Shown: positions 18,604-38,655 of the stretch, one piece after another | How positions within the stretch are numbered: the stretch's first letter is position 1 | How the letters are laid out: every line of letters begins with the position of its first letter | Origin: Pedobacter arcticus A12 | Lineage (GTDB): Bacteria; Bacteroidota; Bacteroidia; Sphingobacteriales; Sphingobacteriaceae | Assembly: GCF_000302595.1 (NCBI RefSeq) | Contig: NZ_JH947128.1 | Coordinates: 372,001-436,000 of the forward strand | Reading direction: 5' to 3' | DNA length: 64,000 nucleotides | Translations under genes and position numbers: made by a program | Notes under the pieces: model-generated | The model's input: the letters and a program-made list of their open reading frames with translations, nothing else | The model's database searches: none | What the model was told of the DNA's origin: nothing

Positions 18604-18842
18604 CGTTTTATCGTTACCGAAAATCATCGCATTAACGATTGAAACGGCATCCTTTTGGCGAGCCTGAGCGGAGGTCGAAAGCTAAGCCAAAAGATACAGT
18701 GCAAAGCGTGTTGAAATGCCCAAAAACTGAAAATACAAAACCCAAAAACGCGACACCAATTCTTTCCCCAAAATGTTCAAAAATTGGGTTTTATATTGAA
18801 GGTAAATTCTCCATCTTCGTATCTTCAAAAAACATAAAAAAC

Positions 18843-37828: not shown

Positions 37829-38305
37829 TTACTTGAGGGTAATTTGTCGCTTAATGCTTTCTTCTAAGGAGATAAAAGTTTCTGTGCGCTGTATCCCAGG
37901 GACAGCTTGTATCTCGTCGTTTAATACGTGGCGTAAATGACCGGTATCTCTACAAATAATTTTTGCAAACATGGAATAATTACCTGTTGTGTAATGCAAT
38001 TCTACAATTTCTTTGATTTTTTTCAGCTCTGCCACTGCCTCATGATAAATAGAACCCTTCTCTAAATAAATCCCTAAAAAGGCGCAGATATCATAACCTA
38101 CTTTTTGAGCATCTACAATAAGATTAGAACCTTTGATAATACCCATATCCTGCATTTTTTTCATCCTCACATGGATTGTGCCGCCAGAAACGATCAGTTC
38201 TTTGGCGATTTCTGTGTACGCAGTGGTAGCGTCGTTCATCAAAATCGATAATATGTCGATATCTAAATTATCAATTTCTAAATTAGTTCGCGTTTTATCA
38301 CTCAT
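37829..38305 (-). CDS. Lrp/AsnC-family transcriptional regulator
   Basis: 158 residues. Helix-turn-helix: LDIDILSILMNDATTAYTEI then AKELIVSGGTIHVRMKKMQDMGII (about 15-58). RAM ligand domain: YDICAFLGIYLEKGSIYHEAVAEL (about 70-95) and ELHYTTGNYSMFAKIICRD (about 102-120). The wing has the SGGTIHVRM variant common in a Bacteroidetes subgroup that is a stand-alone global-type regulator. It is divergent from the tRNA-like RNA gene, and a palindrome lies in the shared gap. The two regulators in the window are clearly different members. Confidence 0.9.
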   Translation of the reverse strand: MSDKTRTNLEIDNLDIDILSILMNDATTAYTEIAKELIVSGGTIHVRMKKMQDMGIIKGSNLIVDAQKVGYDICAFLGIYLEKGSIYHEAVAELKKIKEIVELHYTTGNYSMFAKIICRDTGHLRHVLNDEIQAVPGIQRTETFISLEESIKRQITLK

Positions 38306-38367: not shown

Positions 38368-38388
38368 ATGTTGAAATATTTGCAACAT
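38368..38388. promoter_or_regulatory. Palindrome between the Lrp-type regulator and the RNA gene
   Basis: ATGTTG and CAACAT flank AAATATTTG. The site overlaps the -33 element of the RNA gene promoter, so a bound protein would block it. The regulator encoded 63 bp away is the obvious candidate. Confidence 0.4.
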
Positions 38389-38410
38389 ATAGCTATTCCT
38401 CTTACATTTG
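38379..38410 (+). promoter_or_regulatory. Promoter of the tRNA-like RNA gene
   Basis: TTTG (38379-38382), 20 bases, TACATTTG (38403-38410): both elements perfect. Transcription would begin near 38415, about 54 nt before the cloverleaf. Confidence 0.65.
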
Positions 38411-38468
38411 TACTATACAATAAGTCAAAAGGGCAAGCTTTTTGATTATAATTGAAAAACAAATATAC

Positions 38469-38580
38469 TGTAGGGTGGTGAAATTGGCAGACACACCTCC
38501 TTGTCTCGGTGGCGAAGGTTTGGAAAATAGCAGCAATGTGAAATAACCACTTCGTGTAGGTTCGACTCCTACCCCTACAG
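38469..38580 (+). tRNA. Type II tRNA-like gene, leucine-like body, unusual anticodon arm and 43-nt variable arm
   Basis: A cloverleaf can be drawn: acceptor stem TGTAGGG/CCCTACA (7 bp, perfect), D arm GTG-AAATTGGCAGA-CAC as in Bacteroidetes leucine tRNAs, anticodon stem CCTCC/GGTGG with a central T-T mismatch and loop TTGTCTC, T arm GTAGG-TTCGACT-CCTAC (perfect, with TTCGA). The variable arm is about 43 nt, closed by CGAAG/CTTCG; leucine tRNAs usually have 12-18. Position 34-36 reads GTC (an aspartate anticodon), base 37 is T, and the discriminator is G, not the A of leucine tRNAs. No CCA is encoded. Total 112 nt. It may be a non-standard tRNA, a decayed leucine tRNA or a tRNA-derived RNA. 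It has its own promoter and terminator. Amino acid identity is not assigned. Confidence 0.6.
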
Positions 38581-38612
38581 CCCTTTCGTTTAATTTAGGT
38601 TTATAATTGGTT

Positions 38613-38655
38613 AGTTTAAGCTCCACTCTCCCCGTTTGGAGCTTAACTGTTTTAT
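38613..38655 (+). terminator. Terminator of the tRNA-like RNA gene
   Basis: AGTTTAAGCTCCA and TGGAGCTTAACT pair (one bulged T) around CTCTCCCCGTT, followed by GTTTTAT. It ends the transcription unit 33 nt after the cloverleaf. Confidence 0.8.

Follow-up and report, generated by a model that had tools for sequence, protein, structure and literature searches.

The 64,000-nt stretch of Pedobacter arcticus A12 DNA analysed here (the window) carries a gene for a tRNA-like RNA that, as judged from its sequence and from those of its relatives, probably serves as a dedicated carrier on which AspRS and the amidotransferase GatCAB make asparagine. We directly establish the RNA, its structure, its conserved identity nucleotides, its co-occurrence with gatB, its linkage to a gene for an AsnC-type regulator, and, in its own genome, the lack of AsnA and of a true AsnB among the two AsnB-like proteins over the broad cut-off. 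With less confidence we also lean towards a wider reading, i.e. that a tRNA descendant was withdrawn from translation and acts as a phylum-wide carrier for free asparagine, replacing asparagine synthetase and standing under the control of AsnC.

Architecture, conservation and distribution of the RNA

The gene is composed of a promoter, a short leader, the mature RNA, in which the 3' CCA is not encoded, and an intrinsic terminator (Table 1). Direct re-reading confirmed what an earlier, sequence-only reading had described, i.e. promoter and terminator, perfect acceptor and T stems, a leucine-type D arm, the GTC anticodon, T37, an anticodon stem with a T-T mismatch, the 43-nt variable arm and the discriminator G. 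The acceptor strands TGTAGGG and CCCTACA are paired in 7/7 positions, and U33 is present in the window copy. A related promoter pattern occurs in 157 of 244 distinct 5' flanks, compared with 1.3% of mono-shuffled flanks, and a sigma-70 scan of the region gave nothing above shuffles. The terminator was not in the output of a generic scan whose loops were restricted to 3-8 nt. The leader often contains a short inverted repeat (AAGCAAT ... ATTGCTTA) just 5' of the mature RNA, as seen in 5' flanks such as those of loci L017-L030. Another small RNA in the window, Flavo-1 (RF01705), lies at 18624-18717 (+) and scores 44.5 bits in Rfam against a gathering score of 42.

Table 1. Features of the RNA gene and of its divergent neighbour in the window
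Feature	Position	Strand	Evidence or remark
tRNA-like RNA, mature body of 112 nt	38469-38580	+	direct reading; RF00005 35.2 bits; genus homologues; covariation
Acceptor stem, 5' strand UGUAGGG, pairs with 38573-38579	38469-38475	+	U1-A72 and G2-C71 invariant
D arm GTG-AAATTGGCAGA-CAC (RNA: GUG-AAAUUGGCAGA-CAC), leucine-type 3-bp stem, G18G19	38478-38494	+	
Anticodon arm CCUCC-UUGUCUC-GGUGG (DNA loop TTGTCTC)	38496-38512	+	GUC at 38503-38505
Variable region of 43 nt: stem GAAG/CUUC, UGG/CCA, internal loop, apical hairpin	38513-38555	+	
T arm GUAGG-UUCGACU-CCUAC (DNA GTAGG-TTCGACT-CCTAC), 5/5 pairs	38556-38572	+	helix 100% paired in the covariation alignment
Discriminator G73	38580	+	G in 218/218 distinct copies
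Bacteroidota-type promoter TTTG (38379-38382)-N20-TACATTTG (38403-38410)	38379-38410	+	direct reading
Intrinsic terminator: 10-bp inverted repeat TTAAGCTCCA/TGGAGCTTAA (38616-38646), 11-nt loop, then CTGTTTT	38616-38653	+	direct reading
AT-rich motif gTTgAAATATTTGCAA over the -33 box, candidate AsnC operator	38370-38385	+	by eye in 5' flanks
AsnC-type regulator gene, divergent from the RNA	37829-38305	-	NF008384 'transcriptional regulator AsnC' 176.8 bits; Pfam AsnC_trans_reg

The RNA easily escapes annotation. ARAGORN called no tRNA anywhere in the window and none in 22 loci of the RNA, and a fast Rfam scan of the whole window missed it. When the RNA region was scanned alone with lax filters, the tRNA model with which the sequence-only reading had proposed to compare it exceeded its gathering score of 29, tRNA being the sole Rfam family to do so. 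Fast scans of 20 related loci gave 0 family matches, which is a weak negative as the same scans also miss the tRNA match. Folded on its own, the window copy shows no advantage over shuffles (z -0.09), and the middle of its minimum-energy fold departs from the cloverleaf; thus, single-sequence folding is uninformative and the structure rests on comparison.

This comparison is based on alignment A2, which comprises 64 distinct sequences from seven families fitted to a covariance model. In A2 97.6% of the pair cells are standard, both sides have changed in 19 of 31 pairs, and the covariation score is 0.352; shuffles give 0.151 (0/500 reach the A2 score) and slid controls no more than 0.111. Alignment A1, made with MAFFT and not fitted to the model, gives 94.7% standard cells, 13 such pairs and a score of 0.209 vs 0.098. 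Compensatory changes are found in acceptor pairs 4-7, and pair 10-25 is G-C, A-U or U-A in 63/64 rows. In the D arm the GG and the subsequent C and A are invariant in the 64 rows of A2. The variable arm, for which covariation had likewise been suggested as a check, is built of an outer stem followed by a 3-bp stem, with an internal loop and a hairpin at the apex, and 9 of its 11 pairs (helices 4, 5 and 7) are changed on both sides; its length ranges from 37 to 101 nt in the family and from 48 to 106 nt in distant copies. Long-arm forms at L228, L238, L249, L250 and L251 share a GGGUUGACCAC segment (GGGUAGACCAC in L249) within this arm. The anticodon stem covaries outside Sphingobacteriaceae. 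Its T-T mismatch (CCUCC/GGUGG) is near-invariant in Sphingobacteriaceae and is a standard pair elsewhere. The anticodon arm of this family contains ACACCUCCUU, which presumably matches the anti-Shine-Dalgarno 3' end of 16S rRNA; mimicry of this element was considered and rejected, as other families swap the ACACCUCCUU stem for compensating pairs.

A DNA search of close relatives, as proposed by the sequence-only reading, found the RNA at full length in 15 of the 18 genomes of the genus, with 93-100% identity, which is far beyond chance. In the own family matches occur in 103/151 genomes, weak ones counted in; a single genome has as many as seven, and tandem arrays occur. Covariance model R1, built from 52 elements, detects the RNA in 213 of 300 genomes that were drawn from the order and all belong to the own family; the 213 positives have a best E below 1e-20, and the remaining 87 exceed 1e-13, which is where ordinary-length tRNAs fall. 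With strict filters, long copies are present in at least 30 genomes of a phylum sample of 296, six of them from the own family and 24 from six other Bacteroidota families (2/24 in another class). Here a long copy has at least 108 nt and 61 bits, both being demanded since ordinary 82-87-nt matches reach 63 bits. An exact-pattern scan of named genomes matched at least 120 stretches, and the 80 matches listed carry only names of Sphingobacteriaceae (Pedobacter, Mucilaginibacter, Pelobium, Arcticibacter, Daejeonella, Hufsiella, Desertivirga, a Sphingobacterium MAG) or of higher ranks. No match to the RNA was obtained in phage and plasmid collections.

The RNA is thus conserved, often multicopy, covarying and present in several families, which refutes the idea that it is a relic. 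This was one of the three options left by the sequence-only reading; its non-canonical tRNA was right in kind, and its regulatory RNA is retained as a low-rated rival discussed below.

Arrays of three to five copies are found in L032, L033, L044, L235 and L246, with a spacing of about 150-175 nt in L032, L235 and L246 and of several hundred nt in L033 and L044. In L046, L055 and L065 a copy with a short arm precedes one with a long arm. The array copy L023 913-1024 (+) is degenerate, having U38 and changes in the anticodon stem, and one in L068 (-) has no recognisable T arm; some copies are thus decaying.

Identity nucleotides and decoding

The base pairs U1-A72 and G2-C71 and the discriminator G73 are invariant in 218/218 distinct copies, 190 from the family and 28 distant. 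The GUC anticodon is present in 82/82 family copies found by similarity and in 27/28 distant copies, and C38 in 81 of the 82 similarity-found family copies, the exception being the degenerate L023, as well as in 64/64 rows of A2. GUC occurs in all 190 family elements, but 108 of these were retrieved solely by a pattern that fixes GUC and C38 and were left out of these two counts. All counts in the anticodon arm were made at fixed register, as a free-register search is wrong in 38/218 copies (e.g. GUCUC/GAGAU in Sphingobacteriaceae). Position 20a, in our own numbering, is A in 64/64 rows of A2.

According to PMC9976931, Asp identity in bacteria resides in G73, G34, U35, C36 and C38, to which G2-C71 makes a minor contribution; U1-A72 enables Asp-tRNA to be amidated, and G1-C72 and U20a keep tRNA-Asp from amidation. 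Read against this set the RNA is a hybrid that combines the AspRS determinants with the amidotransferase determinant and has neither antideterminant. Some features speak against charging by AspRS. The RNA lacks G1-C72, a pair that assists the placement of tRNA-Asp on E. coli AspRS, and its long variable arm may hinder the enzyme. G10, also an Asp identity element, was considered and rejected as part of the set, as position 10 is not kept (G, A or U).

A decoding loop usually has U33 and a purine at position 37. Position 33 of the RNA is U in 53, A in 6, C in 4 and G in 1 of the 64 rows of A2, and U in 63 and C in 19 of the 82 similarity-found family copies; position 37 is U in 59, G in 3 and C in 2 rows of A2 and U in 72, G in 5 and C in 5 of the 82 family copies, A never being seen. 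As position 33 is not kept as U and position 37 is never A, decoding is unlikely. Moreover, the own genome has two separate tRNA-Asp(GUC) genes with the loop CUGUCAC, G1-C72 and, by our reading, U20a, and the RNA is thus not required for reading Asp codons. We therefore regard it as very unlikely that the RNA works in translation as a non-canonical tRNA, either reading Asp codons or recoding, even with its GUC anticodon, its intact acceptor and T arms and the U33 of the window copy, the more so as Asn at an Asp codon would be mistranslation.

The sole non-GUC copy among the 218, L244 1501-1615 (-) with the loop CUCUCUC, comes from genome G503, in which AsnA is present and GlnRS absent, and is a case of possible decay or repurposing. 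Loss of GUC beside AsnA is as expected if the RNA is dispensable there, and one case proves nothing.

AsnC linkage, GatCAB and the asparagine synthetases

The sequence-only reading had missed an AspRS-like recognition loop that probably takes no part in decoding, a probable GatCAB mark at the acceptor end, and a divergent gene for a probable AsnC-type regulator. The latter protein scores below the strict NF008384 cut-off of 227, and its next best match, LrpA, reaches 71.7. An AsnC-type gene is located upstream of and divergent from the RNA in 148 of 171 family loci, i.e. those with at least 700 nt upstream, some of which overlap or share a genome, and in 15 of 24 distant loci, with a median gap of 155 nt; it is missing in 23/171 and 9/24, respectively. 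When the ORFs of 160 family loci were clustered, the AsnC-type regulator was found in 136, and the next commonest cluster in 35.

The genes asnC and asnA of E. coli are divergent. On the basis of this arrangement, the RNA appears to take the place of asnA beside AsnC. In E. coli, the activation of asparagine synthetase A by AsnC is lost in the presence of asparagine (PMC4482635). In G033 and G503, asnA has no AsnC gene within about 1.5 kb. A palindromic AsnC operator was rejected, since a fuzzy inverted repeat in 83/244 flanks is not clearly above the control (24% of mono-shuffles).

The linkage to AsnC might also be expected of a regulatory or sensor RNA that associates, in its charged or uncharged form, with AspRS and/or GatCAB and serves as a decoy or as an Asp/Asn gauge whose level is set by AsnC, and the RNA's own promoter and terminator and its elaborate variable arm would suit such a role. 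However, a sensor would have no need to stand in for asparagine synthetases, the presence of up to seven matching copies in one genome is more in keeping with a substrate, and the RNA is lost together with gatB (see below), so that we consider this explanation unlikely.

Based on U1-A72 and the AspRS determinants GatCAB was named as candidate partner before gatB was searched, its presence being scored on gatB alone, without gatA or gatC. The own genome carries gatB at C2:221488-222915 (541 bits). In a hand-picked panel of 35 genomes gatB is present in 23/23 genomes with and in 5/12 without the RNA, and of the 300 genomes 212 have both the RNA and gatB, 86 neither, one (G043) the RNA only and one (G017) gatB only. 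These are not independent events, as all 300 genomes belong to one family and 70 of the 87 genomes without the RNA to one genus (g17). The gene gatB was found without the RNA in G017, G011, G015, G344 and G351, and the RNA without gatB in G043; G017, G011, G015 and G043 are draft genomes.

Both the dominance of g17 and the genomes with gatB and no RNA would be compatible with a gatB link due to chance or shared ancestry, the RNA doing something unrelated, e.g. via its variable arm. Against this stand the prediction of gatB from the RNA sequence, the co-loss inside genus g21, where G037 and G089 have neither the RNA nor gatB and the other seven members in the set have both, the presence of gatB in 11/11 RNA-bearing genomes tested from six other families, and the exact match between the conserved bases and the AspRS/GatCAB set. 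Chance or shared ancestry is thus the least probable of all explanations considered.

The GatCAB of the own genome is apparently not explained by ordinary charging. In a panel of 43 genomes GlnRS is over the cut-off in 26 of 29 genomes with the RNA, the own genome included, and in 12 of 14 without; the exceptions with the RNA are G503, G610 and G618, whose GatCAB has another job. The own genome encodes three PF00152 proteins, namely AsnRS, LysRS and one bacterial-type AspRS, and no second AspRS is among them. In an alignment this AspRS has Leu where 1c0a and 1efw, which we take to be the E. coli and Thermus enzymes, also have Leu, where 4wj3, presumably an Asp/Asn enzyme, has His, and where 6wom, the closest solved AspRS, has Lys. 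Leu at this residue presumably marks a discriminating enzyme, and ordinary tRNA-Asn is probably not a substrate of the own AspRS. Given GlnRS, AsnRS and a Leu-type AspRS, neither Gln-tRNA nor Asn-tRNA charging would need GatCAB in this genome, which is how PMC4206432 portrays organisms with asparagine synthesis on tRNA. Retention of GatCAB beside GlnRS and AsnRS is described for some bacteria, Bacteroidetes among them, in the part of PMC4206432 considered here. A passage in PMC3927822 states that gatCAB is absent from the GlnRS-bearing Bacteroidetes studied there, except S. ruber; this statement does not hold for the genomes searched here.

AsnA was found in 2 of 29 genomes with the RNA (G008 and G503) and in 1 of 14 without, and not in the own genome. 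A broad AsnB model has matches in all 35 panel genomes, over the cut-off in 29. True AsnB (NF006949, cut-off 499) is recognised with 908-946 bits in 6 of the 7 panel genomes that have neither the RNA nor gatB, the seventh, G022, having no protein over the broad cut-off. In 13 genomes with the RNA the best AsnB-like protein reaches at most 320.4 bits to NF006949 where listed, those of G030, G036, G018 and G378 having no NF006949 match within the E-value limit; the best AsnB-like protein of G344, which has gatB and no RNA, is not of NF006949 grade either. This test covered the best match only in 20 genomes and left out G002, G008, G021, G031, G450, G515, G527, G585 and G618 of those with the RNA and G011, G015, G017, G022 and G351 of those without. 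Neither AsnA nor an AsnB over the cut-off was found in G021, a genome with seven matching copies of the RNA.

The own genome has two AsnB-like proteins over the broad cut-off, with 285 and 291 bits to NF006949, which by these scores are not true AsnB and whose genes lie amid genes for polysaccharide export, a flippase and glycosyltransferases. One of the two is fused to a glycosyltransferase: L299 9303-12194 (+), on C4 of the own genome, encodes a 963-aa protein in which an AsnB-like amidotransferase is joined to a GT4 glycosyltransferase in a polysaccharide cluster. AsnB-like proteins of the own and of most RNA-bearing genomes might make asparagine; as such proteins exist, we do not claim a simple asparagine auxotrophy.

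Taken together, we propose that the RNA is transcribed from the shared intergenic region, probably under the control of the divergent AsnC-type regulator in response to the asparagine supply, and that it may then be processed at its 5' and 3' ends and receive CCA. The ordinary AspRS would charge it with Asp via GUC, C38, G73 and G2-C71, as the determinants published elsewhere suggest, and GatCAB, reading U1-A72 and the absence of U20a, would turn Asp into Asn on the RNA, which is in line with both the determinant and the co-occurrence. Positions 33 and 37 and the giant variable arm may keep the RNA out of decoding, and with poor decoding Asn would not be inserted at Asp codons. Finally, Asn would be set free or passed on, the weakest step of the proposal.

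At this last step an alternative branches off, in which Asp is likewise amidated to Asn on the RNA and the aminoacyl group is then handed to a lipid, a peptide or a cell-surface sugar by a transferase. The same identity and gatB evidence would fit, several tandem copies suggest bulk supply, and the release of free Asn is a conjecture. Nevertheless, no widely conserved transferase gene adjoins the RNA, the AsnC-type regulator being the sole neighbour shared by most of the 160 family loci, and the lack of a true AsnB among the best matches tested and of AsnA in most genomes points to asparagine itself. We thus rate transfer to another acceptor as rather unlikely and prefer the dedicated carrier for asparagine.

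Relation to known systems

Full-text literature searches, outside the coverage of which most subscription journals lie, gave no description of the RNA by title or abstract start. It offers a concrete reason for the retention of GatCAB in Bacteroidota with GlnRS and AsnRS, and would add a family of RNAs overlooked by the annotation tools applied here. If asparagine is made on it, the RNA would represent a new functional class of RNA, and would show how an amino acid can be synthesised on RNA with no need for a promiscuous synthetase and no danger to the genetic code. The asparagine prototrophy of Pedobacter- and Mucilaginibacter-like bacteria would thereby become testable through deletion at an RNA locus.

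The RNA resembles tRNA-Leu in its D arm (AAAUUGGCAGA) with a 3-bp stem and in its class II layout, and differs from it in having G73 instead of A73, a far longer variable arm with an internal loop and a hairpin, and a GUC anticodon. A tRNA-Leu is its probable origin, an idea based on ordinary-length tRNAs of unassigned identity that score 50-63 bits with model R1. With elongator tRNA-Asp(GUC) it shares GUC, C38, G73 and G2-C71, apart from one distant copy without G34 and one degenerate copy without C38, whereas U1-A72 in place of G1-C72, the lack of U20a and of A37, a position 33 not kept as U and a variable region of 37-106 nt, where tRNA-Asp has a short loop, set it apart.

There are tRNA genes outside ordinary decoding or with unusual cloverleafs, namely the staphylococcal non-ribosomal tRNA-Gly of cell-wall synthesis and the allo-tRNAs. 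The RNA is similarly a tRNA-type gene apart from ordinary decoding and has an odd cloverleaf, and we know of no staphylococcal non-ribosomal tRNA-Gly or allo-tRNA with a combined AspRS/GatCAB identity or an asnC neighbour.

The closest parallel is tRNA-dependent asparagine synthesis by AspRS and GatCAB on tRNA-Asn, as described for Deinococcus radiodurans, Thermus thermophilus and Bdellovibrio bacteriovorus in the part of PMC4206432 considered here. The system of the RNA is similar in that GatCAB is kept beside GlnRS and AsnRS and that the carrier has U1-A72 and neither G1-C72 nor U20a. In the known pathway asparagine is made on RNA without a dedicated synthetase, which is for the present RNA a proposal from sequence. 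Moreover, the known systems use a non-discriminating AspRS on a decoding tRNA-Asn, whereas here a single, apparently discriminating AspRS would meet a GUC RNA that probably does not decode. As enzymes and chemistry are already known, we rate the system as a variant of tRNA-dependent asparagine synthesis, in which the RNA itself is the new part.
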